Source: Mucilaginibacter sp. SJ
GTDB lineage: Bacteria; Bacteroidota; Bacteroidia; Sphingobacteriales; Sphingobacteriaceae
Direction of reading: 5' to 3'
Assembly: GCF_028993635.1 (NCBI RefSeq)
Contig: NZ_CP118631.1
Span: 558,001-622,000 of the forward strand
DNA length: 64,000 bases
The first letter of the stretch is position 1, and every line of letters starts with the position of its first letter. The notes under the pieces were generated by a model. That model saw only the letters and a list, made by a program, of their open reading frames with translations. It did not search any database and was not told the origin of the DNA. Below, piece by piece: positions 25,819 through 51,554 of the stretch. A program made the position numbers and the translations under genes.

Positions 25819-26477
25819 GGTTTAAGATATTTAGCATTAGTGAGTACCTCGTTGGCAATACGAACATCCTGGTTCTGCCATTCGGCCCATGGGTTCAGGG
25901 ACCGGAGTATCCCATTCATTTTTGCCCAATAAATGCTTCGGTTCATCCCATAAGCCAGGCCACCAAGGATATGCATCTCCGATGCGATATGGTTGAGCAA
26001 TTTTCCGCGCTCCCCCGAATCCATCAGGTTCTGGGTACCTCCCTGAAGTATGAAAGTGCTGACATCCGCCGCAAGCGCCGTCGCCCGTGTCTGAAAATCC
26101 CTGGCACCCCGTTCGGCGAATAATAACAATACCGGGTTGCTTCTGGCCATCGTGACCGCGGCTTGTACATCCTTTACGATATCGATACCGCAATCCGCGA
26201 TCTCTTTGATCGTGCTGAGGTTATTGATGACCGATGCGACCTGACTTAGCCCCTGATAGATCCTGTTTTGCAGATTATTGACCAGAACAAGCTGCCCGCT
26301 CACTGCGAGCTGACCTTTTTGGATCAGGTCGAGCCGGTTATTAGTCGTGTTGAGTTGTCCGTTGATCAGCGCTCCGTCGGCAACGATAGCGCCGGAAACG
26401 GCCGGGTCGACGGTAAGCGTTTGTGCGCCCGCCATTTGAAGAATGAGCAGCAAGAGAAAGGTGATAATAGCTTTCAT
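25815..26477 (-). CDS. Exported TraI-position protein, paralogue 1 of 3
   Basis: The signal peptide (MKAIITFLLLLILQMAGA) is followed by a helical mature protein with repeated LxxxNxLQNRIYQGLSQV-type heptads. The C-terminal NPWAEWQNQDVRIANEVL and NAKYLKP motif is again present. It shares ILGGLAYGMNRSIYWAKMNG with the 24491-25156 copy (IIDGLAYGAWKAVFWAKQRG), so paralogues 1 and 3 are closest. It starts 4 bp inside the end of the TraG gene. Confidence 0.8.
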   Translation of the reverse strand: MKAIITFLLLLILQMAGAQTLTVDPAVSGAIVADGALINGQLNTTNNRLDLIQKGQLAVSGQLVLVNNLQNRIYQGLSQVASVINNLSTIKEIADCGIDIVKDVQAAVTMARSNPVLLLFAERGARDFQTRATALAADVSTFILQGGTQNLMDSGERGKLLNHIASEMHILGGLAYGMNRSIYWAKMNGILRSLNPWAEWQNQDVRIANEVLTNAKYLKP

Positions 26478-28897
26478 TGAACTTTGGTTTGATTAACTCT
26501 GGTGACGAAAGCGGGCAATGAAAGGCCGCTTTGCTGATGATCGGAAACAAAGGCGTTCAGGCCTTGCTCATAAGAATTGAATTTGCTGACATAGTGCTCG
26601 ACAGCTGATTTTTCGGGCTTTTCCGTCGTATAGGTCAGGTATTGATGCAGGGAAACTTCTACACCATAAACCTCTCCCGTCGAACCACGCCTGATATAGA
26701 CCTCTTTGAACCGGCCCCGGCCTTCCTTATTGTCCAGTTGGTTAATGGTAAAGATCTTGCGGCGTTCTGTCTCATTGATGGATAGCAGCGCGGCGATCTC
26801 CAGGTAATTATCCTTGAATTTGGTTTGGTCAAGCAAACAGATCGTATCCGAATTATTAACGATACTGTCTTTCACAACCGCGTTGCCGATGATATCACCC
26901 AATTCCTGTGTGACCACGACGGCCTCGCCCCAGAATTTCCGAACGGTTTTGTACAAATAAAGGAGATACCCGGCCATTAAAGGACTGGCGATAGCTTTCC
27001 AGGCTTCTTCCACAACGAGCGCTTTGCGCCGGTCGGAACGATACCGCATCTTTTGGATGAAAACATCCATGATGATCAGGGTAACGATCGGGAACAGGAC
27101 CTTGTGCTCTTTGATGGAATCGATCTCGAACACGATGAAGCGTTCCGTGAACAGCGAACTGTCGGCTTTCTTGTTCAGTATAGTTTCAAATTCACCACCG
27201 CGATAGAACTTTTTCAGCACATAGCGGAATTCATCAATATCAAAACTGATCTTTTCTGAGGAAATGATCGATGGTATACGCCCGACCGCAAATTCATAGA
27301 AGGAATTGAAATCCAATTCACCGCCACTCATGAACGCATCGCTGTAATATGCAGCGATCACATTGGCGACCACATCCCGTTCGACCTGGCTGAATGTGCC
27401 TTCTGCACCTTTCCATGCTACACCGATCAGGGTACAAAGGAAATCCTTCTTTTCGATATTGTATTCTTCCTCCGTGATCTGGAAAGGGTTCATCGTGATG
27501 GGTTTGGTATCCGAATACGTGATGTATTTGCCCTGGTAGTAGGCGCATAATCCCGAATAGGAATGACCGGTGTCCACAATGACCATATCCATGTTGTAGA
27601 GCATGTATTGCTCGATCAGGGCATTCATAAAAAAGCTTTTACCTGAACCGCTGGGTCCAAGGACGAACTTGTTTCGGTTGTTGATGCGGCCGGTCCTCAT
27701 CGGAAGATCTGCGAGATCGATACCCACCGGGATGCCCTGCCTGTCGGTGAACCTGATCAGAAAGTCAGACGGATCATTTACCGGTAGTGATTCTTTAAAA
27801 AAGAAACACAATGCGGCATCGCCAGTGGTCAGGAACCAATCGTATGGTTTCAGCTCAACACTATTGCCCGGAAGTGCCGCCCGGAAAAGTTCCAATTGGT
27901 TATAAGCATTCTTACTTGGGATGATACCAAGCTGAAAAAGGGAACTTTCGATGTAATTCGTTGCCTTATTTAACTGATCCGGCCCGGAAACCACCAGCAT
28001 ATTGAAATGGCAATTGACCAATAGCTGATTTTCCCTTGCTACATCATTTAACAGGGCATCGATATCCTCCACACATAGTTGGTTGGCCGGGTCTGGTATC
28101 CCTGCGTGCCTTTTCTTCTTTTGTTCAAGCTTGCGGAGCGTTCCTACCTGGTTAGGTATCTCGATCAACTGATGATAGACGACCGAGGACGCACCGGGCA
28201 CTTTGAACAGGAATGATAAAAGATCAACCGGAAATCCCCTGATCGCCTCCGTTTCATTCAATTCGATGTAAGGCCGGATATCAGGTGGCAGATCGATGGA
28301 GTCGATGTTGATCAGACTGACCGAGCGAACCCGCCGTTCACCCAACCGGATTTCATCATTCCCCGGGGCGATATTGTTGAGGACGATAGGCTTTCCGCTG
28401 AAGTCCATACTCAGGAATTCAAGGACCACCTTATTGAGTTCGGCTTCGTTCAATGGCCTGGCACCCGGAATGATATCGATGACCTTACCTATGGTCGATA
28501 CGAACTCTGTAAGCACCCTGGGATCATACACAAAAAAAGCCCCCTTGCGGACCGGTTTGGTGATGGTCAGGTAAGTTCGCACGCTCAGGCTTTCACGGCC
28601 TGAAAAATGTTCGTTGTAGTGTTCTTGCAGGTACTCGGTAGCATGGCCGGGATCAAATGGTTTCCTGCTGATGATATCATGCTTTTGGAGAAGGTAATTA
28701 TCACCCAATATCTTTACGATATTATTCAGCAGGCTATGGAATTCATCATATCCGGTAGCGTATGCGCAGAAACGGATGACCGGGTTGACCATACCGATGA
28801 TGACGGAATATTCACCGCCCATACCGATCAGGATGTCAAATCCACCATGATGATCAATTCCGGCATATGGGATCTTAAATAAGTTTTTTGCGGGCAT
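26474..28897 (-). CDS. traG: TraG family conjugation ATPase (VirB4-like)
   Basis: This is the large ATPase that powers assembly of the transfer apparatus. Walker A is at about 419-426 (LGPSGSGKSFF). The family motif VIVDTGHSYSGL and the NPFQITEEE box follow. Walker B is ALVVEEAWKAI at about 635, with a TQELGDIIGN motif near 665. The length of 807 aa is normal for Bacteroidota TraG. It overlaps traF by 23 bp upstream and the first TraI-like gene downstream. Confidence 0.93.
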   Translation of the reverse strand: MPAKNLFKIPYAGIDHHGGFDILIGMGGEYSVIIGMVNPVIRFCAYATGYDEFHSLLNNIVKILGDNYLLQKHDIISRKPFDPGHATEYLQEHYNEHFSGRESLSVRTYLTITKPVRKGAFFVYDPRVLTEFVSTIGKVIDIIPGARPLNEAELNKVVLEFLSMDFSGKPIVLNNIAPGNDEIRLGERRVRSVSLINIDSIDLPPDIRPYIELNETEAIRGFPVDLLSFLFKVPGASSVVYHQLIEIPNQVGTLRKLEQKKKRHAGIPDPANQLCVEDIDALLNDVARENQLLVNCHFNMLVVSGPDQLNKATNYIESSLFQLGIIPSKNAYNQLELFRAALPGNSVELKPYDWFLTTGDAALCFFFKESLPVNDPSDFLIRFTDRQGIPVGIDLADLPMRTGRINNRNKFVLGPSGSGKSFFMNALIEQYMLYNMDMVIVDTGHSYSGLCAYYQGKYITYSDTKPITMNPFQITEEEYNIEKKDFLCTLIGVAWKGAEGTFSQVERDVVANVIAAYYSDAFMSGGELDFNSFYEFAVGRIPSIISSEKISFDIDEFRYVLKKFYRGGEFETILNKKADSSLFTERFIVFEIDSIKEHKVLFPIVTLIIMDVFIQKMRYRSDRRKALVVEEAWKAIASPLMAGYLLYLYKTVRKFWGEAVVVTQELGDIIGNAVVKDSIVNNSDTICLLDQTKFKDNYLEIAALLSINETERRKIFTINQLDNKEGRGRFKEVYIRRGSTGEVYGVEVSLHQYLTYTTEKPEKSAVEHYVSKFNSYEQGLNAFVSDHQQSGLSLPAFVTRVNQTKVQ

Positions 28898-31128: not shown

Positions 31129-32067
31129 TTATCGTGTATTGGTTCTTGCTTTTTTCTTTTTTCGCCGGTTACGGCCAAGAACAGCCTCATCATCCACATC
31201 ATTTGCGATCCAAACACCTGGTGTGGTGATAGCCGGCTGATGAGTACCCGCTCCGGTTGAATGTTCAGCTCTAAGCTCGCCATGATCTGTTCGGAGTTCC
31301 CGCAATGAAAGCACCTCGCTTCCCTTGAAGACCTGCATGGTCTCATGATCGATAATGGTGTATCCGTAAGGGGCACGCCCTGGTGCGGCATGGAATATCA
31401 GGTCAAGCCGGTGTTGCTCACTTAAGTATCCGGAAAGATCCGGGCGGCCTTGATGCCTCAGTAATATTTGCCTGATCGCATTCGCGCGCTCCCGGTCCGG
31501 TCGGTGTTCGGCGATCCGTTTTCCAAGTTTATCAAGGTTCATGTCACGACCTTCAAATCCTGCCTTTTCCAGTAAAAGGTAGAATTGCGCGACCGTGCTG
31601 AAGCGGTATTGCATACCATATTTATAACCAAGTGTCGCCTGAAGCGCATCGATAGCCCGTAGTTTTTCATAGGCGCTATTGATCTTTTTGCCCTCCCTGT
31701 CAACCCGGGTGCTGACCAGATGAATGTGATTGTTATCGGTATCCTTATGAAAAACGATGAGGTACGGTTGAGCACCAAAACCCATTTGCTCCAGCCAGGA
31801 TTGTCCGGTCCGCATCAATTCCTGCTTGTTATAGGTCGCACCTTTCGCAGAAATCACCGCATGGAATTGCGGTTTGGAAACCCTTTTATTCTGTGCAGAA
31901 AGCAACTTCAAATAATTGATGTAGTCCTGTGGGCGCAGACCGGTAAGTCCCTGTAGTGGCCCGAAATTAGCGATCTTCAGCAATTCGCCTTTGTTACGTT
32001 CCACCTTATTGGTATTATAACGCACCCCGGGAAAGCCATTCACTGGTTTAAGGATCTTTACGATCAT
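31129..32067 (-). CDS. mobB: Relaxase / mobilization nuclease (MobB-type)
   Basis: The relaxase nicks oriT and stays bound to the transferred strand. The HUH motif is in HKDTDNNHIHLVSTRVD (about residues 110-126), with a candidate catalytic tyrosine among QPYLIVF and TYNKQEL upstream. The C-terminus is basic (RRKKKKARTNTR). ATG 32067 (MIVKILKPVNGF) is the typical start; the longer frame to 32112 is less likely. mobC and the candidate oriT lie upstream, now separated by the octamer array and an IS3-type insertion, which may affect coexpression. Confidence 0.9.
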   Translation of the reverse strand: MIVKILKPVNGFPGVRYNTNKVERNKGELLKIANFGPLQGLTGLRPQDYINYLKLLSAQNKRVSKPQFHAVISAKGATYNKQELMRTGQSWLEQMGFGAQPYLIVFHKDTDNNHIHLVSTRVDREGKKINSAYEKLRAIDALQATLGYKYGMQYRFSTVAQFYLLLEKAGFEGRDMNLDKLGKRIAEHRPDRERANAIRQILLRHQGRPDLSGYLSEQHRLDLIFHAAPGRAPYGYTIIDHETMQVFKGSEVLSLRELRTDHGELRAEHSTGAGTHQPAITTPGVWIANDVDDEAVLGRNRRKKKKARTNTR

Positions 32068-32142
32068 AGACGGAAATTGAAAGGGAATAGCCTGCCGGAC
32101 GGTTAGCATCACTAATGCCTTAAAAAACCTTATCGGCAGCGC

Positions 32143-32593: not shown

Positions 32594-33460
32594 TTATTCA
32601 TCACAATAGATTTTATTATGTTTTTCTTTCCAATAGTTCTTCCATTGCCTGGTCAGTTCTCCTTCACCGGAGTGAGCTGCTTCAGGCGTAAGCATATTAA
32701 TACTCAGGTGTGGCCTTCGGGTATTATATGCATCAATGATACCTGATAAGCGTAGAGCAGTTTCTTTCTTGGTACCCGGCGGGGCTTTATTAAGCCATTC
32801 GGTCTTCAAAGTGCCATTTACCCGCTCTGCTATTGCATTTTCCAACGGATCTCCATTCTCAGTCATACTAATGCTGATATGGTTAGACCTAAGTTTAGCA
32901 ATGTATTTATCACAGCAGTATTGGACGCCACGGTCCGAATGATGAATAAGATTGTCTGCTTTATTATCAGATAAGCCTGAAAGAGCCATTTCTAAAGCAT
33001 ATACAGCACTATCAGCATCCAGCTTGTGGGATAGATTCCATCCAACTATTTTGCGGGAATAAGCGTCTGTGATCAGCGATAAGTATAAATACCCCTCACT
33101 GGTTGCAATGTAAGTGATATCGCTTACCCATAGCTGTTGCGGACGAGTCAACAAGATATCGCGTATCAGATTAGGATACCTGCGATACCTGTGTCTTGAA
33201 TCGGTTGTTACTACCTTGGTTTTTCGATGGCGAACCAGAAGATGGTTTTCCCTTAATAAATCAAAAAAAGCGTCCCGGCCGATCTGTATGTTTTCTCTTT
33301 TCATCGGCATACTGATCATATTAAGCAACTTACGCCCGCCAATGCCAGGTAAACTGCTGCGTTCATTGAGCACCATTTCAAGCACGATCTGCGATTGCGC
33401 GCGGCATTTATATTCGTATTTCTGTAACTGGTAATAGGCCTGTCTGGTAAAGCCAAACAA
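32594..33460 (-). CDS. IS3-family transposase OrfB (DDE integrase core)
   Basis: This frame carries the rve catalytic core: D in LWVSDITYIAT, D in HHSDRGVQYC and E in ENAIAERVNGTLK, with the usual spacing. The listed start at 33460 is TTG and probably not used. The frame stays open upstream to the slippery heptamer at 33531-33537, so the active enzyme is an OrfAB fusion made by -1 frameshifting. The HTH_21 region (FTRQAYYQLQKYE) begins the OrfB part. Confidence 0.9.
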   Translation of the reverse strand: MFGFTRQAYYQLQKYEYKCRAQSQIVLEMVLNERSSLPGIGGRKLLNMISMPMKRENIQIGRDAFFDLLRENHLLVRHRKTKVVTTDSRHRYRRYPNLIRDILLTRPQQLWVSDITYIATSEGYLYLSLITDAYSRKIVGWNLSHKLDADSAVYALEMALSGLSDNKADNLIHHSDRGVQYCCDKYIAKLRSNHISISMTENGDPLENAIAERVNGTLKTEWLNKAPPGTKKETALRLSGIIDAYNTRRPHLSINMLTPEAAHSGEGELTRQWKNYWKEKHNKIYCDE

Positions 33461-33501
33461 TCCACAGAGCTTATCAATACTTAGCTCCGGACATTGTTCC
33501 T

Positions 33502-33870
33502 TTATTTCCTTGACTGTTTGGCTCCAGACTTTTTTCTGATGGAGATGTTGAGGTCACGTTCTGCAACATCGATCATCTTGTTTGTAGCCAGGTTTGTCAG
33601 GCGCTCTCTTTCGAGGGCCTCTTCCAGTTCTTGAATACGGCGTGCCATGCCTTCCGGCGTATACGGCAGATCCGATTTCGGTTTTTGAGGAGGGGTATCC
33701 ATTACAGGTGTTCTGAATTCTCCGCCAAATTTACGAACCCATTGTTGAATTGAGGAATGTGTTGCGATACCAAATTTGTCCGCAATTGCCTGTTGAGTGA
33801 GATCGGATGTTAAATAAAGTTCGACTATTTCACGCTTGAAATCGTCCGAATAACGCTTTACAATTTTCAT
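33502..33870 (-). CDS. IS3-family transposase OrfA (HTH)
   Basis: A 122-residue protein with the IS3/IS911-type helix-turn-helix (YSDDFKREIVELYLTSDLTQ, about residues 6-45, then a second helix pair) that binds the terminal repeats. A leucine-zipper-like segment (IQELEEALERERL) follows for dimerisation. It ends 42 bp downstream of the OrfB TTG codon in a different frame. The frameshift heptamer lies close to its stop. Confidence 0.9.
   Translation of the reverse strand: MKIVKRYSDDFKREIVELYLTSDLTQQAIADKFGIATHSSIQQWVRKFGGEFRTPVMDTPPQKPKSDLPYTPEGMARRIQELEEALERERLTNLATNKMIDVAERDLNISIRKKSGAKQSRK
33531..33537 (-). promoter_or_regulatory. Programmed -1 frameshift site A AAA AAG
   Basis: On the minus strand OrfA codons AGA AAA AAG form the classical slippery heptamer. 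After a -1 slip the reading continues as VWSQTVKEIKEQ into the OrfB frame, which stays open to its stop at 32594. This is the usual way IS3 elements make OrfAB. Confidence 0.8.
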
Positions 33871-36417: not shown

Positions 36418-37263
36418 TTAACGTAAAAGGTCCTGTTCAGCACGCATATTGATCGCCTGGACCATTTGGTCAAGAAACCTGGTTATGGAGATCCTTTTCC
36501 GGCTTTCGATCTCGCCGAACTTTTTCTGAACATTGCCCATGTTCACAGCCAGGGAAGACTCCAGCCATCGTACGATCTGGCCGAGGCTGGCATTGCCATT
36601 GTTGACCTGCCCGGTAAGCCATACCCCGTAGGCGACCTCGATCAGGTTCACGATATCTCCGGTCCATTTTACCGGATTGTCGCTGTCCTCCAAATAAAAT
36701 GTCCCCGAAGGCCCTTGTCGCTCGATCAGTTCGATCTGATTTAATATGTAAAACTGGATACGTTCATATGCAATAAATTTGGCGAAAAGGTATGTCATTG
36801 CCGTGGATGTATCCGGCGCGAGTTCAGGCAGGTCCGGCATAGGGATGGCTGCCTGGCCACCTCCCGGAACAAAATAAAGATGATCGAGTTCGGTGAAACC
36901 GTTCTTGTAATATTGGTAATAGAACGCGTTCATGCGAAGAAAGGCGGCCAGTGATTCCAATTGCCCTTCAAAATAATCGACCTGGGTCTCCGTCCGGCCG
37001 ATAGGCCTGTTGATCACCAACGTGTATCTGAGCCCTTCCTCGATCCGGTGCGCATCAATATAGGGCTTGATATGCTTAAAGGCCGATATCTTCTGTTTAA
37101 TATCAAGAAAATCCTCATTACTGATTAATTCTTTAAATTCCGCACCGAAAGGTTCGATGATGCCGATTGCGGCGTTAAACCTCTCCAATGGTGCTAAATC
37201 GTCAGGTAACGCCATCAACCGCTCTCTGAGGGTCGGTGGCAACGTCTCAATTTTCATGTTCAT
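36418..37263 (-). CDS. rteC: RteC domain protein (regulator of conjugative element excision)
   Basis: RteC activates excision genes in CTnDOT-type elements. This copy has the family features: central FEGQLESLAAFLRMNAFYYQYYK split over two helices (the first part at about residue 105) and a C-terminal winged-helix-like region with KKFGEIESRKRISITRFLD. The length is about 281 aa from ATG 37263. It stands alone with its own terminator at the border between the transfer module and the peptide island, so it probably controls the element in response to an internal signal. Confidence 0.85.
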   Translation of the reverse strand: MNMKIETLPPTLRERLMALPDDLAPLERFNAAIGIIEPFGAEFKELISNEDFLDIKQKISAFKHIKPYIDAHRIEEGLRYTLVINRPIGRTETQVDYFEGQLESLAAFLRMNAFYYQYYKNGFTELDHLYFVPGGGQAAIPMPDLPELAPDTSTAMTYLFAKFIAYERIQFYILNQIELIERQGPSGTFYLEDSDNPVKWTGDIVNLIEVAYGVWLTGQVNNGNASLGQIVRWLESSLAVNMGNVQKKFGEIESRKRISITRFLDQMVQAINMRAEQDLLR

Positions 37264-37340
37264 AGGATAGTATTTGATGTTTAAAGGCAATAGCATTCCA
37301 GCCCGGTATGAACCAGATATTGGAAATGAGGAATTTGCAG

Positions 37341-38735
37341 CTAACCGCAGAGTTCCCGGAACTGGCGACAGGCGTCGAACCCGGCTTCGATCTGTGGGAG
37401 AATACCGAAAATCCTTGATGGAATGGTAGAAATGTAAAAGCTGCCGGCAACAAGGGTTACCATTTCTGCGGGTGAAAGCGAACCTTCTTGAAGGTCAAGG
37501 ACGGCGAGCAGGAAAGTTACCGCAAGGTAAAGGGTATTGATAAGTTCCAATTGAAAGGTGGCAGTATTGGTCCGCTTGCCAAAAGTGATGGCCTTTAGGG
37601 ATAGCTTACTGAATGAAGCATTCTGCATTGAGCTAAGTCGCTCTGCATTTAATCGGCCTCCACCGCGTGACAGCATTTCATTCGCTTTAGCGAAACTCAT
37701 TTCAAAGTTTTTCGCGTCAGCAGCAAGAGTGTTTAAAAAGGTATTATGATCATTGATCTTACGGGAAATAAATATACCTTGTAGGATCATCATTAGGCCT
37801 GTACTGACCGCGACCGCTTTAGATAGATAAGTTGCACCAGCTAAAAAGAAAAGGCAAAGTAACAGGTCGGGAAGAATAATTGAAGTAATCCCAAGCGATG
37901 ACTGGGATATTCGTTGAATATCGCGCAATGTGTTTTTGATCCCTGTATCAGAAAGACGTCCGGCTCCCTTCCAAAAGAAAAAAATGTGATCGATCAATTT
38001 CCGGTTAAGCCTGTCGCTGGTCGTATTGGTCAGGTTCACCAGCAATTGCTGGCGAAGGTAATTGAGTAAACCACGGGATAAACTGAGGGAAACAAGGAGC
38101 AAAACCCAACAAAGAATGACTGGCCGACTTGCCTGGCCACCCGTATGTGAGGTTTCCTGAAGCAACCAGGCCAGGGCAATACCAAAGAAGATACTACTTG
38201 CAGACATCACCGGGACGATGAGCAACAAGCCACGTGACCGTTCAAATCCATTGAATATCACCCGTGCTTTCGCCAAAAAGCTTTGACCGGTATGGTGATA
38301 CGCCAGGATCGGAAAATACAAGGCCGATCTGCTTTGCCAGCAAGCATCCAGTTCATTTTTGCTCATCAGGATCAGCCCGTTGGCAGGATCACCAATGACA
38401 TAAAAATATGCTTTGCCGACCTTTTTCCTGCCGAAACAGACCATGAAATGGGTCGCACCAGTTGCTGATACGGTATGGATGATACATGGGGTATCAACTT
38501 CATTCAGATGATCAATATCCATTTCAATGGCTTTCGCGTTAAGATGGAGATCGGCCAGGGCTGCTTTTAATTCAAACAAAGAAAGTCCATCGGGGCCTAT
38601 AGGGATCGCATCCGGTTCTTGAACCGATGGCTCCAAACCTGCATAACGCAGGATCATTGTCAGGCATGCATGGCCACAATCATTATCAGAAATTTGTCTT
38701 TTATAAATTTTGTTCAATTGTCGGATCGACGGCAT
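37341..38735 (-). CDS. C39 peptidase + ABC transmembrane domain, no ATPase domain
   Basis: The N-terminal C39 peptidase has all catalytic residues: C20 in SDNDCGHACLTM, His in THFMVCFG (about 96) and Asp in VIGDPANG (about 112). Six membrane helices of an ABC exporter follow (about 165-460). The protein then ends at residue 464, exactly where the nucleotide-binding domain should begin. The downstream gene is rteC, so no ATPase domain is supplied next door. C39 domains cleave leader peptides after GG; a GG-leader peptide is encoded at 39739-39915. Either the NBD is encoded elsewhere or the protein works as a membrane-bound peptidase. Confidence 0.85.
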   Translation of the reverse strand: MPSIRQLNKIYKRQISDNDCGHACLTMILRYAGLEPSVQEPDAIPIGPDGLSLFELKAALADLHLNAKAIEMDIDHLNEVDTPCIIHTVSATGATHFMVCFGRKKVGKAYFYVIGDPANGLILMSKNELDACWQSRSALYFPILAYHHTGQSFLAKARVIFNGFERSRGLLLIVPVMSASSIFFGIALAWLLQETSHTGGQASRPVILCWVLLLVSLSLSRGLLNYLRQQLLVNLTNTTSDRLNRKLIDHIFFFWKGAGRLSDTGIKNTLRDIQRISQSSLGITSIILPDLLLCLFFLAGATYLSKAVAVSTGLMMILQGIFISRKINDHNTFLNTLAADAKNFEMSFAKANEMLSRGGGRLNAERLSSMQNASFSKLSLKAITFGKRTNTATFQLELINTLYLAVTFLLAVLDLQEGSLSPAEMVTLVAGSFYISTIPSRIFGILPQIEAGFDACRQFRELCG

Positions 38736-38762
38736 AGATATTAATTTAAGTGAACGATAGGA

Positions 38763-39404
38763 TCAGATGTGATCGGGGAAAACTACAACGGAGAAAAAGG
38801 ATAAGGTCAAAGTCCAAAGGAAAAGGGCGGGTACATAGCTGCTGAGCACCATTTGCAATGACCGGTCAAATACACCGCCGATCAGGCGGTAAATGCCCCA
38901 GGCAAGCATAAACCAATAGGCTATCTCAAAAAGATTCAGGGTTTGCAATGGATAATACCAGCTTGCACCAACGTTGCCAATGATGGAAAGTGCGGAAAGC
39001 GGATGGAACCTGTGCCAGTCCGCCAATGTACCCGGATGGAACAGCTGTGTAAAAGCCAGGGATTTGATCAGCGCTGCCAACACGAAAATAAATTCTGCCC
39101 TCATCACCACCAACATCGTGTCCGTAAAAGTGCAACCGGCACCTTTCAAATACAACGCGGTATAGATCGTGATGGAAACCAATAAGATCTTGATCGAAAG
39201 GTAGGCTGCCTCTGAAAGGTAGATCCATCGTTGCAGGTCATGATAAGCGGTAAATTCAGTTACGGGATCTCCGGTCAGATATTCACCGCTACCATTTAAA
39301 AACTCAAGCGTCAGGATATTTTTGTCAGTTAACCATATCATGCAGAATGATAATAGTAAAAGTGCGCTGAATGTAACCAGAATGGTCTTTTTAGTCGTTT
39401 TCAT
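38763..39404 (-). CDS. Polytopic membrane protein of the peptide island (213 aa)
   Basis: Five hydrophobic helices (about 8-26, 62-85, 95-118, 140-160, 180-205). A conserved-looking FHPGTLADWHRFHPLSAL segment with several histidines lies between helices 3 and 4, and could bind a metal or haem. No family is recognised; a permease subunit or immunity-like protein are both possible. It is cotranscribed with the C39 transporter (27-bp gap). A palindrome overlaps its start codon. Confidence 0.7.
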   Translation of the reverse strand: MKTTKKTILVTFSALLLLSFCMIWLTDKNILTLEFLNGSGEYLTGDPVTEFTAYHDLQRWIYLSEAAYLSIKILLVSITIYTALYLKGAGCTFTDTMLVVMRAEFIFVLAALIKSLAFTQLFHPGTLADWHRFHPLSALSIIGNVGASWYYPLQTLNLFEIAYWFMLAWGIYRLIGGVFDRSLQMVLSSYVPALFLWTLTLSFFSVVVFPDHI

Positions 39405-39423
39405 TACCTAATATTTTTAGGTA
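39405..39423. promoter_or_regulatory. Palindrome at the start of the membrane protein gene
   Basis: TACCTAATATTTTTAGGTA has 7-bp arms around the spacer TATTT; one further base pairs on each side. It shares the core CTAATATTTTTAG with the dinB operator candidate. It abuts the ATG (complement of 39402-39404), so bound protein or an RNA hairpin would hinder initiation. Confidence 0.5.
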
Positions 39424-39424
39424 A

Positions 39425-39714
39425 AATTCGGCGCGTAAAAGGCCATCAACAATAACCAGTACTTGTAAATTATAATCCTGAGTTGTAGAAAATCTACATA
39501 ATTATGCCATTAAAAATTTATGCGATCCTATCAACAAAAATGAATTTGGTTGTGCTTACGCTTAGATATAGGGTGATCAAATAACCTTCAAAAGGCTGTT
39601 GTGGCCCAAAAGAATTAAAAGCAAAAAGAAGATGGCGCGTGAAAAGCTGGGAACCAGTATTGAAATAGCGAAGAATGGTACAGGCGGAAAATGAGGAATA
39701 ATAATAAAGATAAA
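39425..39714. other. Intergenic region without convincing gene
   Basis: Between the membrane protein and the GG-leader peptide gene. One small palindrome (TGTAGA/TCTACA near 39484) is visible. Short frames exist on both strands, but none has a GG leader, a family match or a start signal. Confidence 0.4.
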
Positions 39715-39730
39715 CCGGGCCGAGGCCCGG
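39715..39730 (-). terminator. Terminator of the GG-leader peptide gene
   Basis: CCGGGCC and GGCCCGG form a 7-bp GC stem with a 2-nt loop; read on the minus strand it is followed by TTTATCTTTATT. It begins 8 bp beyond the stop of the peptide gene, so the peptide is a monocistronic mRNA. Confidence 0.85.
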
Positions 39731-39738
39731 CTTAATTG

Positions 39739-39915
39739 TTACCAAAGACCAAGGCAGGAAGGTCCCGTGGCAGCGGCTATGGCGCCAACTAAAGCACCCG
39801 CGCCGCCGAATAGACCGCCGAGAGAAGCACTTACAGCCACATTATATGCGCAATTACTTCCAGATTGGGCTCCGCCTTTTAATTCCTTGGCCTGTTCATC
39901 AGATAACTCTTTCAT
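39739..39915 (-). CDS. Bacteriocin-like precursor peptide with double-glycine leader
   Basis: ATG 39915 gives MKELSDEQAKELKGG, a classical short GG leader (L, E, L and GG at the expected positions). ATG 39939 would add MEGTKFYI. After GG comes a 43-residue core with two cysteines (about residues 7 and 39 of the core) and a glycine/alanine-rich hydrophobic stretch (GGLFGGAGALVGAIAAATG) with GxxxG-type spacing, as in pore-forming class II bacteriocins. A C39 peptidase-transporter is encoded nearby. The peptide may be a bacteriocin or a signal; activity is inferred. Confidence 0.8.
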   Translation of the reverse strand: MKELSDEQAKELKGGAQSGSNCAYNVAVSASLGGLFGGAGALVGAIAAATGPSCLGLW

Positions 39916-40007
39916 GATATAAAATTTAGTTCCTTCCATCCATTTGGAATTGGTTTAAAGGTCAGGGAGCTTAGTGACACCAGGTAGAACGTAAGGTTGT
40001 AATTTAT

Positions 40008-40039: not shown

Positions 40040-40378
40040 ATGGATACAATCGGAGAAAAAATAAGAATTCAGCGGGTTGTAAAAAAATACAGCCAGGAGT
40101 ATATGGCATTCGCGCTTGAAATTTCACAGGCGGCCTATTCAAAGATCGAAAGAGGTGAAACCAAGTTAAAACTGGATAGAATATACGAGATCGCGGAGGT
40201 ATTGGAAATATCCCCCTTTAAATTGATGCCCCCTTCCAAATACGATGGTGCAATAAATTTCCAGGGTATCTACGCGCAGTATTTTAAGATAAAGCGATTC
40301 ATTATCACAAAAGTATTGCGTAGAAAATATTTGGTCGCTGTTGATGATGTTGATCAAAGTGACATATCAAATAATTAA
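40040..40378 (+). CDS. XRE-family transcriptional regulator (112 aa)
   Basis: The helix-turn-helix is at residues ~8-62 (IGEKIRIQRVVKKYSQEYMA, then ISQAAYSKIERGETKL as recognition helix region). A ~45-residue C-terminal tail may sense a ligand or dimerise. It is divergent from the GG-peptide gene with 100 bp between, and likely controls both directions. No peptide-binding TPR domain is visible, so a quorum-type peptide receptor is not supported. Confidence 0.8.
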   Translation: MDTIGEKIRIQRVVKKYSQEYMAFALEISQAAYSKIERGETKLKLDRIYEIAEVLEISPFKLMPPSKYDGAINFQGIYAQYFKIKRFIITKVLRRKYLVAVDDVDQSDISNN

Positions 40379-40467: not shown

Positions 40468-40674
40468 ATGGATTTTTTGTCTTATGAAAAACGATTGGCT
40501 TATTTATTGGAACTGGTCACTAAAGGTCGGCTACGTTCTCTTGATGACGTTGCCGGAAGATTCGACTGCAGCACTCGTACCGTCAAGCGGATGATCAATC
40601 ATCTTCGTGATCAAGGGCATCAGATTCAATACGATCGTCTTGAAAAAAAATATTTTTTAAAAAAAGATGAGTGA
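40468..40674 (+). CDS. Small HTH regulator (67 aa, DeoR/HTH_11-like)
   Basis: A compact winged helix-turn-helix: LLELVTKGRLRSLDDVAGRF then CSTRTVKRMINHLRDQG as recognition helix and QYDRLEKKYFLKKDE as wing. It lacks the WYL or sugar-binding domain that larger family members carry. The following MauE-like gene starts 42 bp after its stop. Likely a local regulator of the DUF6520/SusC/SusD system (inference). Confidence 0.75.
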   Translation: MDFLSYEKRLAYLLELVTKGRLRSLDDVAGRFDCSTRTVKRMINHLRDQGHQIQYDRLEKKYFLKKDE

Positions 40675-40715
40675 CATTTTCTGTCACTTATGCGGATATA
40701 TTTTTGTTACAACCT

Positions 40716-41144
40716 ATGAGAGTTGCAATTATATATACCGCACAATTTTTATTGATCTTACTTTGGCTGTATACTGCCTCAAGTAAGCTGTTTCAGTATG
40801 AATTATTCCGTCAGTCTTTAGACCGACAGCATTTTTCTTCCTTATTAACCCATTTACTTTATTGGGCCTTACCTGCAGCTGAATTAGGATGCGCGGCATG
40901 CATTTTATCTACGCGGACTTTACGATTGGGTTTTTGGATATCCGAAACGTTGTTGACCATATTTACGGTATATATTATCCTGGTATTATTAAATTTTTTT
41001 GAAAATGTTCCTTGTTCTTGCGGCGGGGTGATTGAAATGCTTACCTGGAAAGGTCATCTTTTTTTTAACCTATTCTTTATAGTCGTAAATACCCTTGGTT
41101 TAATTTCATTAGCTGGGAAAGGAGGTCAGTTTTCAGACAGATAA
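40716..41144 (+). CDS. MauE/DoxX-like redox-associated membrane protein
   Basis: ATG 40716 (MRVAIIYTAQFLLILLWLYT) is preferred to the GTG at 40671. There are four membrane helices. Cysteines in CAACILSTRT and VPCSCGGVIEMLTW (CSCGG) follow the pattern of MauE proteins that supply reducing or oxidising equivalents for disulfide formation. A TlpA-like gene at 46218-46787 may be the periplasmic partner. The length is 142 aa. Confidence 0.78.
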   Translation: MRVAIIYTAQFLLILLWLYTASSKLFQYELFRQSLDRQHFSSLLTHLLYWALPAAELGCAACILSTRTLRLGFWISETLLTIFTVYIILVLLNFFENVPCSCGGVIEMLTWKGHLFFNLFFIVVNTLGLISLAGKGGQFSDR

Positions 41145-41278
41145 ACATCAGAATTGTTCACCGTGATTGTCAGGAACGATCCGGAAACACAGGATGTGCC
41201 GAAAACCCGCAAAAAGAGTAGGCATATTTATTTAATCACATAGTATTTATTATTTCAAACTCAAAAACACGATTCCAT

Positions 41279-41608
41279 ATGAAAAAGGTAATTATCCCTG
41301 CAGCAGCAGTTGCTTTAGCATTATCGTTTAGCGCATTCACTTCCGCTAAAAAAGTAACCAGCAATTTTTTTGAATACACGTCTTCCTCGTTAGCCGAAAG
41401 TGCTATAAAAAACCGAGCAAATTATCAGGCGGCCTCATCTGATGCTGCCTGCACAGCCAGCCAAAATGTCTGTGGCGTGGTTTTATCGACTGCAAAAGAC
41501 ATTGGCACGTTACCGGATGCGACCGAGTTTGCATCGCAAACTGCTGATCTTTGGGCCTCACAACAGGGGCATTCAGCAACCAATGGTGATATAGAAATGA
41601 AACCATAA
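41279..41608 (+). CDS. DUF6520 family small exported protein
   Basis: A signal peptide (VIIPAAAVALALSFSAFTSA) and a short mature part with two cysteines, DAACTASQNVCGVV. This is the typical DUF6520 form found in Bacteroidota next to MauE, TlpA and SusC/SusD genes. The role is unknown. The spaced cysteines could be oxidised by the MauE/TlpA pathway. It is preceded by a 134-bp region in which I see no further gene, and followed by a bidirectional terminator. Confidence 0.8.
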   Translation: MKKVIIPAAAVALALSFSAFTSAKKVTSNFFEYTSSSLAESAIKNRANYQAASSDAACTASQNVCGVVLSTAKDIGTLPDATEFASQTADLWASQQGHSATNGDIEMKP

Positions 41609-41623
41609 ACTGTGCAAGCATCT

Positions 41624-41660
41624 GATTCGTATCAAGGGGAAATCCCCCTTGCTACGGATT
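41624..41660. terminator. Convergent bidirectional terminator
   Basis: GATTCGTA and AAGGGG pair with CCCCCTT and TACGGATT in one interrupted stem between the DUF6520 and SusD genes, which face each other; the stem overlaps the susD stop. Confidence 0.7.
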
Positions 41661-43022
41661 TTGTTCGAGTCCGCTGATATTAACAGCATTTTGATCGATA
41701 GCAAAAACGTACCTATCCGCATTTGGTGGTAATTGGTAAACCACATTATTAATATTCCTGGTTAACGTAATTTTATTGGTTTCACTTAAATTTAATCTTC
41801 TAAGGTCTATCCATCTGAGGGACCTAAACGGCAGTTCCTTTCGTCGCTCTGCAATAATAGCGTTTACAAGCGCTGATACATTGTTATAGGTCAATGGAAT
41901 AAACGTTCCTTTCTTCCATCGATTTTGCAACAGCATGTTGAGGTCTGCGGCACCATCACTCAAATTACCGTTTCTTGCGTAGCATTCCGCCCTCGTCAGG
42001 TACAATTCGTTAGTGGCGATGCCTGTGAATAGGGCTGCTGTATTCAAACCAGTATAATTGCCCTTAAATGATTTGGAACCGTTTGCATTCGTTCTAAATA
42101 ATATAGCTTTCCTTAAATCATTTGCCTGGTAGCTGCCATATAACACTGTGTCTACCTTGGCCCTTGAAGATAACAAAGCTGACGGGGCACTGGTCCTGGC
42201 ATCATACAAAACCTCGTCATTAAATTGCTTAAAAGGAATTGTAGCGGTTGATGAGATGGCATTATAATCCATTAAAGTTCCATACGATTTAAGTGCGGAA
42301 TCAGCGTAGATGCCTGCATCTTTAAAATCTGACATGGATAAATAGATTCTTGCCAGTAAACCCCAAGCGGCCGGCCGGCTTGGAAGATATTTTTGGGTAA
42401 TTTTTATAGGTAATAATGGTAATGCTTGTTTCAGATCGCCAATTATTGAAGTATAAGCATCTTCAACTGATCCTCTTTTGGGTTTGACGTTAACATTAGA
42501 GGTGTTTCTGATAGCTATGCCAAGATCAGAGCCAGCTGTAGCTGAATTATACGGCTTTGAATAAAGTTGACTTAAGGAAAAATGATACGAGGCACGGATA
42601 AATAAGGCAGCCCCTTTAACATTATTTAATTGAGAATCAGTGGCAGGGGTGATTTTTGGTAAGGCATCCAATATAACGTTCATATATTCAACAGCATTGT
42701 ATGCGGCTGTATAATCCCCAATGTTTAAGCTATATTTTGTCCATAGATAGTAATTGTTCTGGGGATTTGTAAGCGAGTTATAATCTGCAGTAGTCAAATA
42801 ATAATCATCTGAGGCTACCTCAGAAGCAGAAGGATAACGGGCATTTACAAAATTGTAATTGTAAATGATCCCATACAGATCATCAATCGTTGATGGGGTT
42901 GAAATGCTTTGGTCAGGTTTACTGTCAAGATATTTTTTGCAACCGCTTAACGAACTAACAAGTATGCAAAGTGACATAGAAAGGTAAACCCGGGTAAAGG
43001 TTAGTATGTAAGTCTTTTTCAT
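41652..43022 (-). CDS. RagB/SusD family outer-membrane lipoprotein
   Basis: The lipoprotein signal ends with LSGCKKYLDSKPD, so Cys28-type lipidation is expected on the cell surface. The helical TPR-like body follows (AALFIRASYHFSLSQLYSKP, AAWGLLARIYLSMSDFKDAG). SusD-type proteins form the lid of the TonB-dependent porin and bind the substrate. It is 1 bp downstream of the SusC gene. The 456-aa length is in the normal range. The substrate is not predictable; TlpA and DUF6520 neighbours argue for a peptide or protein rather than a glycan (inference). Confidence 0.9.
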   Translation of the reverse strand: MKKTYILTFTRVYLSMSLCILVSSLSGCKKYLDSKPDQSISTPSTIDDLYGIIYNYNFVNARYPSASEVASDDYYLTTADYNSLTNPQNNYYLWTKYSLNIGDYTAAYNAVEYMNVILDALPKITPATDSQLNNVKGAALFIRASYHFSLSQLYSKPYNSATAGSDLGIAIRNTSNVNVKPKRGSVEDAYTSIIGDLKQALPLLPIKITQKYLPSRPAAWGLLARIYLSMSDFKDAGIYADSALKSYGTLMDYNAISSTATIPFKQFNDEVLYDARTSAPSALLSSRAKVDTVLYGSYQANDLRKAILFRTNANGSKSFKGNYTGLNTAALFTGIATNELYLTRAECYARNGNLSDGAADLNMLLQNRWKKGTFIPLTYNNVSALVNAIIAERRKELPFRSLRWIDLRRLNLSETNKITLTRNINNVVYQLPPNADRYVFAIDQNAVNISGLEQNP

Positions 43023-43023
43023 T

Positions 43024-46000
43024 TTAAAAATTTGCTTTAAAACCTAAGGATATATTCATTGGATTTTTAAGACCATATAGGAAGTCTGGGTCTAACTTTG
43101 ACTTATTAGCTTTCCAAACCATCCAATTTAACTGGTTGGCATAAGCATATATCTCCAGCCGTTTTAAGCTGGCTATATTTATAAACTTTAGGGTATAACT
43201 TAAATAAATATCATTGACCTTTATATTGTCAGCTTTTTCAGCATTTATCGAAGCAAACTGGTAAAAATTATCGCGCTGCCAATCAGAAGGATAAACAAAG
43301 GACGGGACATTGGTATGAGCTTCATCACCGCTTTTTTGCCAGCGGGAGTCATAATCAGGATAGCCCATGCCGGTGTTATAAAGGACATCTGAGTTAGTGG
43401 TTGGCTTAAGGAACCAGTATTTAAGTCTATACGTCAAATTGACTACTAATGACAAATCATGCCAGCTGAATGAGTTCCTGAAATTGCCGTAGAATAAAGG
43501 CACGGCACTTCCGATGATATCTTGCTTATCAATTGAATTGGAAAGTATCGCATTATAATCTTCACTGACATTTCCGTTCACGTAACCTCGCGGATTACCA
43601 TTCTGGGGATTAAGCCCGGCCCATTTGAAGGTTACAATCTGGTACGGATTATATCCGACGATCGGAAATATATATGTTCCGGAACTTACCAGGCCCTCCG
43701 CAGAAGGCGGATTAAGTAACTTGGTGGTTTTATAATTTGAATAGTTAAATAGAAAACTTGAAGTCCATTTTAGACTACCTTGCAGGTTATCTGAATTGAG
43801 TATTAATTCAAGGCCTTTTCCAAAAATACTTGCAGAATTTAAATTAGCAGAATTAAATCCTACCGTCGGGTCCAATAATACGCTATTAACCAAGTCTTTT
43901 GAGTTTTTAGTATAATAATCAATGGACCCTGAAATACGTTTGTCTACGAAGGCAAAATCAAGCCCTGCGTTAAACGTTTTAACCTGTTCCCAACGAAGAT
44001 TGGGATTTTCCGGTGAGCTGATATTGACATAAGGCAGACCTATTGGGTTCCTTGACGCGGCTGCATAGGTGATCCTTGTCAACCCGGATTGACTTGGCGA
44101 AATGTTTCCACTGGACCCGTAAGAAAAACGGGCACTCAGGTCAGAAAGCCAATCAGAACGGAAGAATTTTTCATTTGATATACGCCATAGGAAACCGGTT
44201 GACCATAACGGCACCCATTTATTATTCGTTGATACCCCAAAGATATTCGACGCATCCCTACGCGCACTGGCGGTCAATGTATAGCGATTATCGTAACTGT
44301 ACGAAGCATTGGCGTACGCTGAAACAAAGCGGGTCCTAATCAAGGTAAATCTGGTGCCGTCGGTAATCGCCGAACTCCCATAAATGTTATCATAAGTCGG
44401 GTGCAAGGTTGCATAATCAACTTTCTGAGAGGTCAGAGTGTTGGGGTTATAGCCATAAGTAGTGGCGTACTGAACAGAAGAAGTATTTTCTCTTATTTCT
44501 CCACCGGCAATTGCATGAAACTCATGCTTTGAATTCCAGGTTTTATCAAAATCGAGTTGTGCACGGCCCGCCTGTTGAAGAATATTTCCGTTTTGGGTCG
44601 AGAGAATGTTGCCTTTAGGTACATAGTAAGTTAACTGGTTATTCGTAACTGAAGTAAAAGTGTTGATATAATCCCTCACGCCATAAGTATTCATGTTCTG
44701 ATCATTATTCACCCACGAGGAAGTCTTATCATACTGGTATTTAGCGTCCACTTTTAACCAAGGTAGAATTCTGTAAGTACTTGAAAGATTAACAAGGACA
44801 TCGGTCTGTCCTGAAGTATTGTTATTTTCATGAAGGTTTTGCAGGGGGCGATACTTCCAATCCAATAATTTCCCGTTGCCCGCAGTATCAGTAAATGCTC
44901 TGCTGTAATAGAGGTCGATTGCTGCCGGACTGCCGTCAGGATTAATTAAGCGCGCATATGGAGCTATGGCATTCGTACCGGTGCTGTAACTGCCGAATCC
45001 TCCCGGACTATTTTGACGAGCAGTATTTTTGGTTAGAATAATATCCGATTGAATCAGCAGATCCTTCGTGATTTCGATGGATTGATTGGAGCGGATAGTT
45101 ATTCTGTTGTTATCATTTCCAACCAGTGAGGCAAGATTTTTATCATATCCTGCGGAAAAAATATACCTGTAACTCCTGGCTGAACCAGAAATATTGGCAT
45201 AATATTGTTGCTTAACCTCACCGCGGTACAAATATTTTTCCATATCGGATCTCACATCCTGTCCGCGAAGAACATTAATGGCACTTTCAGCCTGGGCATT
45301 GGTAATCTCCCCGTTCTTGGCCCGGTTTAAGATATCCGCTACGGGGGGTATTGGGCTAAAGTAAGGGCTGTTAATATTGCTATCATAAAAACCCTGTGTA
45401 AACAATTGCTTTTGTAGTTCGATAATATTATTTACCGATGCTGTTCGCGCTGAATAAAGATTGATCTTTGGAGATAGTGTAATGTTGGAACTCAAGGTTA
45501 ATGATAAGGGTTGATTTGCTTTTGCCTTTTTTGTATCGATAACGATAACACCATTTCCAGCTTTAGCGCCCCAGATAGAAGTTGCTGCCGCATCTTTTAA
45601 GACCGTTATACTTTCGATATCATTTGGGTTGATATTGTTTATATCCCCTGCATATGGAAAGTTGTCAAGGATAATTAAAGGACTCTGGTTTGCGTAATTA
45701 TGAGAGCTTAAACCTCTTATCTGGATCGTTTGGGCATTGGCATCGTGGTTGTCAAAGAGTACTCCACTTGAAACACCATCGAGCCTGCTAATAATATCCG
45801 GTGAAACCCTTTGATCCAGCAGCTTTTTATCTATCTTGAAATAAGATCCCGTTGCCCGCTCTTTTGGAATCTCCTGATAGCCACTACTGACTACAACCTC
45901 CTTAAGATTAGTCGTGATTGGTTCCATTACGATATGAACCGGTTGTTTTGTGTCATCTGAAATGGGCTTCATTGCGGTTTTAAAGCCGACATGAGTTAAT

Positions 46001-46221
46001 ACAAGCGTGTCTTTAGCGTTCTTTGAAAAAATCCAAAAATGCCCTGAAGAATCTGTAGAAGACGTAGCACCAAAGTTTTTTAAAGTGATCGAAACCCCGG
46101 GAAGTGGTTTTCCTTCAAAATTCACATCTCCATATAACCTGAACCCATTCTGCCCAATTACCGATTTTGATGAAATGATCAATAACAATAATATCGTTAT
46201 ACGTGTAAATACCTTTTTCAT
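43024..46221 (-). CDS. SusC/RagA family TonB-dependent outer-membrane transporter
   Basis: The signal peptide is followed by a carboxypeptidase-like beta domain (GDVNFEGKPLPGVSITLKNF) and then the plug with the RagA-type sequences ATGSYFKIDKKLLDQRVS and VLKDAAATSIWGAKAGNGV. A ~700-residue beta-barrel ends with aromatic-rich strands (GLKNPMNISLGFKANF). The length of 1065 aa is typical. It lies in one operon with the TlpA-like gene (4-bp overlap) and SusD (1-bp gap). Confidence 0.93.
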   Translation of the reverse strand: MKKVFTRITILLLLIISSKSVIGQNGFRLYGDVNFEGKPLPGVSITLKNFGATSSTDSSGHFWIFSKNAKDTLVLTHVGFKTAMKPISDDTKQPVHIVMEPITTNLKEVVVSSGYQEIPKERATGSYFKIDKKLLDQRVSPDIISRLDGVSSGVLFDNHDANAQTIQIRGLSSHNYANQSPLIILDNFPYAGDINNINPNDIESITVLKDAAATSIWGAKAGNGVIVIDTKKAKANQPLSLTLSSNITLSPKINLYSARTASVNNIIELQKQLFTQGFYDSNINSPYFSPIPPVADILNRAKNGEITNAQAESAINVLRGQDVRSDMEKYLYRGEVKQQYYANISGSARSYRYIFSAGYDKNLASLVGNDNNRITIRSNQSIEITKDLLIQSDIILTKNTARQNSPGGFGSYSTGTNAIAPYARLINPDGSPAAIDLYYSRAFTDTAGNGKLLDWKYRPLQNLHENNNTSGQTDVLVNLSSTYRILPWLKVDAKYQYDKTSSWVNNDQNMNTYGVRDYINTFTSVTNNQLTYYVPKGNILSTQNGNILQQAGRAQLDFDKTWNSKHEFHAIAGGEIRENTSSVQYATTYGYNPNTLTSQKVDYATLHPTYDNIYGSSAITDGTRFTLIRTRFVSAYANASYSYDNRYTLTASARRDASNIFGVSTNNKWVPLWSTGFLWRISNEKFFRSDWLSDLSARFSYGSSGNISPSQSGLTRITYAAASRNPIGLPYVNISSPENPNLRWEQVKTFNAGLDFAFVDKRISGSIDYYTKNSKDLVNSVLLDPTVGFNSANLNSASIFGKGLELILNSDNLQGSLKWTSSFLFNYSNYKTTKLLNPPSAEGLVSSGTYIFPIVGYNPYQIVTFKWAGLNPQNGNPRGYVNGNVSEDYNAILSNSIDKQDIIGSAVPLFYGNFRNSFSWHDLSLVVNLTYRLKYWFLKPTTNSDVLYNTGMGYPDYDSRWQKSGDEAHTNVPSFVYPSDWQRDNFYQFASINAEKADNIKVNDIYLSYTLKFINIASLKRLEIYAYANQLNWMVWKANKSKLDPDFLYGLKNPMNISLGFKANF

Positions 46222-48656: not shown

Positions 48657-48884
48657 ATGTCAGAAAACGCGCATCATCAAGAATATTTCCTTCGTTTCGG
48701 GCGTCATCTGAAAGCATTACGAACATCCAAAAATTTGTCTCACCGAAAGTTAGCTGCCAAATGCAATGTGGAGTTCGCTGACATCGTACGTTATGAAAAA
48801 GGAGAAATCAATCTGACAATGAAAACACTGATCGAACTTTCGATCGGCCTGGATATCCCACTTAAGGAGTTAATGGACTTTTAA
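48657..48884 (+). CDS. Small XRE-family regulator (75 aa)
   Basis: Cro/CI-type helix-turn-helix with LKALRTSKNLSHRKLAAKCN and a recognition helix in VEFADIVRYEKGEINLTM; the end LDIPLKELMDF mirrors the first XRE protein. Its 3' end overlaps the 3' end of ptuB by 23 bp on the other strand. This tail-to-tail overlap could let the regulator influence Septu expression by antisense transcription, or it may simply be compact packing. Confidence 0.82.
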   Translation: MSENAHHQEYFLRFGRHLKALRTSKNLSHRKLAAKCNVEFADIVRYEKGEINLTMKTLIELSIGLDIPLKELMDF

Positions 48885-49746
48885 CTACCGGTGCCGGTTT
48901 GACAATGGCCAGCGGCGCATAAAAACCCCCATCGCAAAAAGCATCATGGTCAGCAAGGGCGAACAGAACTACCGAGCGCCAATGATTGATGCCGAATCTT
49001 TCCTGAAGGCTCTTGCCGCTCTTCCTGAGGTCAAGTTTGACGGCTTCCTTTCCACCGCTTTTATAATTTTCATCCAGATATCGGGCTATAGAACTCAGCT
49101 GTATATTCAGGGCTTTCCGCAGCCGTTTGTTCAGATTCACCCGTTTCATTTGGAAGTTCATCTGCGTCACCAGGCTGCTTGACAGACCGGCTACAGGACG
49201 AACCTCTAATTTAATGCTCAGTCCTTTACCGTGCAACCGCACTTTGGCGAACAGAAATTGTTGATCGTCAGGTATGTCGTCATAATACACGTTAACGAAC
49301 CTTTCGTGCGGTTTTGAACCATCCAGAGATCGTTTTTTATTGTTGCATTTGTGACAATAAGGGATCAGGTTACGGCTATAGATCGACAGTGGTTGATAAT
49401 CTTCCTTAGGAAGATAATGATCAAGTTCGTCCGCCTCGCCGATGCCGCAGCACGGACAGGTATCCGCGCCCATTAAAAGTTTATCACGCAGTTTTTTCAG
49501 GCGTCCTTTGATCTGTACCTCATCGTAGGCGTTTTTCATCGCCTCAAGCAGTCCTGCGGATAAATATTTACCCTGAAGTGCCGGTGAGGTGATCCCTTTG
49601 GCTGCATCATAAGCCCGGTATATTTTATCGATCGCTTCCTTTTCCGCGGCTGTGATCGGATATTTCATTACACCACTTTTTTTCGTCAATGCTTTATCGA
49701 TGTTTTTCATCGAGCCGTTACGGGGAGGTAGGTCAAGTTTCCACAT
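48862..49746 (-). CDS. ptuB: Septu defence HNH nuclease PtuB
   Basis: The HNH domain is at about 95-140: CPCCGIGEADELDHYLPK then CHKCNNKK, with the two CxxC pairs that bind zinc and the DH pair as active site. PtuB cuts DNA in complex with the ATPase PtuA when phage attack is sensed. It starts 1 bp after the ptuA stop, so the pair is coupled. A helical C-terminus (about 200-294) probably binds PtuA. Confidence 0.88.
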   Translation of the reverse strand: MWKLDLPPRNGSMKNIDKALTKKSGVMKYPITAAEKEAIDKIYRAYDAAKGITSPALQGKYLSAGLLEAMKNAYDEVQIKGRLKKLRDKLLMGADTCPCCGIGEADELDHYLPKEDYQPLSIYSRNLIPYCHKCNNKKRSLDGSKPHERFVNVYYDDIPDDQQFLFAKVRLHGKGLSIKLEVRPVAGLSSSLVTQMNFQMKRVNLNKRLRKALNIQLSSIARYLDENYKSGGKEAVKLDLRKSGKSLQERFGINHWRSVVLFALADHDAFCDGGFYAPLAIVKPAPVVKSPLTP

Positions 49747-51433: not shown

Positions 51434-51484
51434 CAACGAATTTAAGAAATGCAGTGTGATCCCCAAATTCAATTCAAATAAATG

Positions 51485-51554
51485 CGCCGCATTTTCGCCA
51501 CCCAACGGAACACCCGCGAAAATGCGGCGACCGGCCCCGGCTCCGTCCGGGGCG
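51485..51554 (-). terminator. Two GC-rich hairpins between the PRTRC block and ptuA
   Basis: A perfect 14-bp inverted repeat (CGCCGCATTTTCGC at 51485-51498; GCGAAAATGCGGCG at 51516-51529) and a second stem GCCCCGG/CCGGGGC (about 51535-51554). On the minus strand they follow the last PRTRC-block gene and are succeeded by an A/T-rich stretch. Most likely transcription ends here before ptuA. Confidence 0.55.

Follow-up and report, generated by a model that had tools for sequence, protein, structure and literature searches.

Type I exporters usually carry fused ABC ATPase domains (NBDs). PCAT1, for example, combines a C39 peptidase with catalytic Cys, His and Asp residues, a six-TM exporter domain (TMD) and a C-terminal ABC ATPase domain. 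That a C39 protein lacking an ABC ATPase can process precursors is known from FapD of the Fap fibrils. Precursor processing of this kind has also been described for NapP of gonococcus (PMC11798529). For the bacteroidetocins, a four-gene architecture is sufficient for production, and deletion of the 5-TM gene, which confers no immunity, attenuated the activity (Coyne et al. 2019, PMC6671954).

The locus described here lies in a 64,000-nucleotide stretch of Mucilaginibacter sp. SJ DNA, referred to below as the window. The module to which it belongs shares with the bacteroidetocin loci (i) a 15-aa GG leader, (ii) a mature peptide of ~42 aa with Cys, (iii) a 5-TM protein and (iv) a C39 protein, the 5-TM protein being classed through its relatives in peptide/thiol oxidoreductase/transporter loci. 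In contrast, the ABC transporter with a peptidase domain is represented by the peptidase and the TMD only, and the module differs further by a rhomboid protease, an uncharged core and its location on a conjugative element with RteC. The thiol oxidoreductase found in most class IIf loci is absent beside the module; none turned up in the conserved gene neighbourhood of the NBD-less loci, whereas the NBD-bearing relatives have it. The module is genuine and conserved, a variant of bacteroidetocin-type loci that has lost the ATPase and gained a rhomboid. In the open-access papers searched we found neither an earlier description of this variant nor reports of NBD-less C39 exporters or of rhomboids combined with GG peptides.

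The peptide gene (39739..39915, minus strand) encodes a 58-aa precursor composed of a 15-aa leader, MKELSDEQAKELKGG, and a 43-aa core, AQSGSNCAYNVAVSASLGGLFGGAGALVGAIAAATGPSCLGLW, which is Gly-rich, uncharged and contains two Cys residues. The ORF, the leader type and the two-Cys core agree with the original prediction of a bacteriocin-like GG precursor, and class IIf peptides are characterized by a GG leader of ~15 aa and a mature part of ~42 aa containing two or more Cys (PMC6671954). Alignment with homologues revealed the same leader type in all 16 peptides compared; the leader, whose conservation had been proposed as a check, is thus conserved (61% mean pairwise identity), and the core is nearly fixed. 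Across the diverged loci, the mean pairwise identity of the core reaches 80%, with 45% for the rhomboid, 43% for the 5-TM protein, 38% for the C39 domain and 24% for the TMD. Charged residues are absent from 13 of the 16 aligned cores, but the Gly-rich stretch is no more than a weak TM segment. We saw no GlyGly-CTERM tag in it. The leaders of three loci (L033, L034, L037) end with AG or GA instead of GG; the catalytic residues of their C39 proteins are intact.

The gene located at 37341..38735 (minus strand) encodes a 464-aa protein with a Pfam Peptidase_C39 domain (E=2e-21) and a six-TM ABC-exporter domain. The residues Q14, C20, H96 and D116 are present and invariant in 20 of 20 aligned relatives, in line with the predicted complete catalytic site. 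The protein gave no match to ABC_tran (Pfam), and its AF2 model (pLDDT 79), which aligns with PCAT1 over the entire length (Foldseek, TM 0.70–0.72), stops where TM6 ends, so that the predicted stop before the NBD also held. The C39 peptidase with its catalytic Cys/His/Asp and the six-TM exporter domain are therefore common to PCAT1 and this protein, but the C-terminal ABC ATPase domain is absent from it, from its NBD-less relatives and from their neighbourhoods. FapD and NapP resemble the module in processing a precursor without an ABC ATPase; unlike the module, they have not been described with a six-TM exporter domain, a 5-TM partner or a rhomboid, and the NCBIfam FapD match of the 464-aa protein is far under the model cut-off.

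Local truncation or frameshift was rejected as the origin of the NBD-less form, which recurs in ~20 loci; downstream of the C39 gene, no NBD remnant was left in any of the eight loci tested. NBD-bearing homologues, named in the original prediction as a sign of truncation, do exist, namely in bacteroidetocin-type loci and in two loci that share the peptide type and the rhomboid. However, the NBD-less form is conserved and the C39 gene is under purifying selection (dN/dS ~0.28 in a close trio of sequences, the membrane part being alike), so that this form is not a dying truncation. The NBD-less homologues identified in 16 family genomes have open frames of 454–520 aa with ~20–30% identity. A scan of contigs with the C39 sequence of the window as the only query found nothing; the query that worked was the peptide alignment. 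In two otherwise intact C39 transporters, stops (L130:9126-9128 and L146:9997-9999) fall between the TMD and the NBD or early in the NBD. They were rejected as a precedent for a split-gene transporter, since both are in frame and are probably nonsense mutations.

The NBD-less proteins were compared with NBD-bearing transporters of equal divergence in the C39 domain (0.36 vs 0.37) and the remainder of the TMD. Identity was 0.18 in the NBD-less and 0.39 in the NBD-bearing proteins for ICL1, which contains the coupling helix, and 0.24 versus 0.45 for the TM6 exit; the loss in the NBD-facing segments was significant (Mann-Whitney p=1.4e-7), with some uncertainty in the alignment of these loops. 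Within the TMD, erosion is strongest in the coupling segments, some of which carry deletions, and the NBD-docking surfaces thus differ from those of PCATs. No ORF encoding an NBD lies within ~9 kb of any locus, and no full NBD was detected in the window, where ABC_tran matched nothing but a Walker-A fragment belonging to a defence-type ATPase. Of the two mechanisms originally offered, an ATPase acting in trans or leader cleavage only, the eroded surfaces and the lack of a nearby NBD favour the latter, although they do not prove it. The deepest NBD-less branch (L037, Daejeonella) has kept the coupling motif without an NBD, and the coupling region of L197 is changed with an NBD present; erosion of the surface is therefore no proof against ATPase docking. 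Moreover, the purifying selection acting on the TMD suggests that this domain may still serve as a passage.

The 213-aa protein encoded at 38763..39404 (minus strand) belongs to a family whose members occur alongside C39 transporters in bacteroidetocin-type loci. Its model contains five TM helices (pLDDT 86); the protein gave no clear Pfam match and its fold no match in the PDB. The several histidines remarked upon earlier carry little weight, since no His is invariant in the family. Its gene is separated by 27 bp from the C39 gene, which in turn is followed after 44 bp by the gene for RteC, a regulator of CTnDOT-type elements (36418..37296, minus strand; PF09357, 2e-50) that occupies the same place in most loci but has no counterpart in the vicinity of the Daejeonella and G001 loci. 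Judging from this arrangement, the three genes probably form one transcription unit; a second terminator-like site follows RteC (36397-36376). The peptide had been placed in the same unit, which is probably incorrect: directly 3' of its stop codon lies a hairpin resembling an intrinsic terminator (39711..39734, minus strand; 10-bp stem, consensus match only), and in the relatives a convergent gene separates the peptide from the membrane protein gene. The peptide gene and the 5-TM/C39/RteC genes are thus probably transcribed separately. In the window, the position of the convergent gene, a rhomboid on the opposite strand in the relatives, is a gap (39405..39738) with no rhomboid ORF left. On the other side, an HTH_3 (Cro/C1-type) regulator gene (40040..40378, plus strand), which in almost every locus is transcribed divergently from the peptide gene, is accompanied by a conserved gene for a 68-aa protein (40468..40674, plus strand), read from its sequence as a helix-turn-helix protein. 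The Rfam search yielded nothing.

The region 40671-46221 of the window encodes MauE-like and DUF6520 proteins (plus strand) and a SusC/SusD pair (minus strand), all of which most elements keep next to the module. Since MauE-type proteins are connected with disulfide formation, they might help to close the two-Cys peptide.

All 12 module rhomboids tested contain PF01694, and in the alignment the Ser of the GxSG motif and the His of TM6 are invariant; the match in the PDB is GlpG. Two rhomboids, a housekeeping one and an extra one, are present in each of the 15 carrier genomes of the genus, whereas each of the 15 non-carrier controls of the genus has one rhomboid and no extra (0/15). This strongly ties the rhomboid to the peptide module. 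The gene is missing from the locus in the window; the genome carries a module-type rhomboid at G000:C1:628632-629222, ~6.6 kb past the end of the window and 31 kb from the locus, which nests within the module-type clade. In another genome (G225) the rhomboid is frameshifted and the peptide intact. The module rhomboids share PF01694 and the Ser/His residues with rhombosortase and GlpG, and match the TIGR03902 and GlpG models weakly. A rhombosortase function was rejected, because the housekeeping rhomboids of the genus match that model equally weakly, so that the match provides no evidence for sorting.

The peptide was found in 19 of 301 family genomes, among them all 17 genomes with an NBD-less C39 protein. 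NBD-less homologues were identified in 16 of the 301 genomes, four further genomes contain longer homologues, and an additional NBD-less locus (L095) was reached via the 5-TM family. The peptide carriers without an NBD-less C39 protein are two genomes. One of them, G143, has two loci (L197 and L198), each with the peptide, rhomboid, 5-TM protein and a full NBD-bearing C39 transporter, as well as HTH_3; the rhomboid is thus not simply a replacement for the ATPase. The leaders of these two loci end with VGD and FGD rather than GG, and the contamination of the G143 assembly is 7%. The other genome, G037, contains a peptide-like ORF, rhomboid, 5-TM protein and thiol oxidoreductase, on a contig where no C39 gene was found.

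The gene set is found again, with its order unchanged, in ~20 other loci at 20–45% protein identity, far more than chance would give, the named carriers being Mucilaginibacter species, a Daejeonella and a MAG. The usual order is SusC and SusD, then DUF6520, MauE, a small HTH gene and HTH_3 on the other strand, followed by the peptide, the rhomboid (other strand), 5-TM, C39, RteC, primase and Mob genes. Most loci reside inside CTnDOT-type conjugative elements of Mucilaginibacter and relatives, flanked by two HTH regulators on one side and RteC on the other, and the carriers of this element family are soil and water bacteria. No relatives of the peptide were found in plasmids and viral contigs. 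The predicted conjugative element around the locus was confirmed by the transfer genes of CTnDOT type identified in the window: TraG (26474-28897), TraM (20353-21495), a coupling protein (17288-19282), a relaxase (31129-32112), RteC and a weak TraJ below the Pfam cut-off (22564-23718). Two ORFs at 32594-33870 (minus strand), between a mobC-like gene and the relaxase gene, resemble an IS3-family transposase pair by sequence only. The minus strand of the window also encodes a 585-aa AAA ATPase (49748-51505) matching the PADLOC candidate defence models PDC-M01A (E 1e-89) and PtuA/Septu (E 8e-66), with 48862-49746 (minus strand) adjoining.

In other Sphingobacteriaceae, the genes next to relatives of the 5-TM protein encode GG/Cys peptides, a full C39 transporter whose Walker motifs are intact and a thioredoxin-like protein (AhpC-TSA), which is the four-gene architecture sufficient for bacteroidetocin production. 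The 5-TM family extends to other families of the class, in one of which its members L137–L144 have no C39 transporter within several kb. In a tree of the C39 and membrane domains, the NBD-less proteins form a clade sister to those transporters (support 100/99). After addition of the two G143 transporters the rhomboid-bearing module remained a supported group (100/99), but with L197 and L198 included the AU test, affected by long branches, disfavoured a single clade of NBD-less proteins (p=0.0125). A single loss of the NBD, to which the first tree pointed, was therefore not retained as an explanation. It appears that the rhomboid module arose earlier than, or simultaneously with, the NBD loss, which took place within it, once or more. 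On this evidence, the module is derived from a bacteroidetocin-type (class IIf) locus. Neither this link nor the rhomboid formed part of the original prediction.

The conserved peptide, the NBD-less C39 protein and the near-constant company of the rhomboid suggest two-protease maturation rather than ATP-driven pumping. The best explanation, to which we assign a probability of about 0.5, is that C39 and rhomboid proteases together handle a membrane peptide. We infer that the C39 domain would cut the 15-aa leader after GG (or GA/AG) at the cytosolic face, the transporter part without ATPase anchoring the peptidase and, together with the 5-TM partner, holding the peptide at the membrane. Nearly always uncharged and Gly/Ala-rich, the mature peptide would enter the inner membrane without an ATP-driven stroke of the C39 protein itself. 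The dedicated rhomboid would then cut the peptide in the membrane, either releasing an active piece or protecting the producer, and the peptide would most likely act on the membranes of competing or element-free cells. The broader proposal of a ribosomal peptide system without an ATP-driven exporter, in which C39, rhomboid and 5-TM proteins do the work of the transporter as a core trait of the element family, is a tentative one. It is also possible, if doubtful, that the rhomboid serves as immunity or antidote only, with a peptide that is toxic to the membrane of its own cell and a module that serves the element as an addiction or competition cassette. This is a limiting case of the two-protease explanation, and the probabilities overlap. 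CAAX/Abi-family intramembrane proteases act as bacteriocin immunity proteins, and the rhomboid, transcribed separately and convergent to the peptide, has been kept in trans in the genome of the window. On the other hand, G225 combines a broken rhomboid with an intact peptide, and bacteroidetocin producers lack an immunity protein (PMC6671954).

Ordinary class II export, with a C39-TMD half transporter powered by a chromosomal NBD encoded elsewhere, would fit the PCAT1-like model of the TMD, its purifying selection, the coupling motif of L037 and the 68 NBD matches in the genome of the window. We consider it unlikely, given the erosion and deletions of the coupling segments, the lack of an NBD gene near any locus and the normal fusion of NBDs in type I exporters. 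The peptide could alternatively be a signal of the element, reporting element-bearing cells and acting via the HTH regulators or RteC on excision and transfer. In favour of such a role, C39 immediately precedes a co-oriented RteC in most loci, the HTH_3 regulator is divergent from the peptide and the core is far more conserved (80%) than the enzymes (24–45%); the role is nevertheless rather improbable, because L036 and L037 have the module but neither RteC nor transfer genes nearby, no conserved receptor or two-component pair accompanies it, and the uncharged, membrane-like core is unlike soluble pheromones. The loss of the NBD, the absence of the thiol oxidoreductase and one frameshifted rhomboid might indicate a relic, i.e. 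a bacteriocin locus on its way out after losing its motor, but catalytic residues invariant over very diverged copies, a near-invariant core, the fixed gene order and a dN/dS of ~0.28 make this highly improbable.

If the two-protease explanation is true, the motor of a PCAT can be discarded while the peptidase, the membrane domain and the substrate stay, and the maturation of a GG-leader peptide without an ABC ATPase becomes testable. A rhomboid protease would be linked to bacteriocin-type peptides, a connection for which the papers searched contained no precedent, and the conjugative elements of Bacteroidota would gain a possible function in competition, immunity or signalling.
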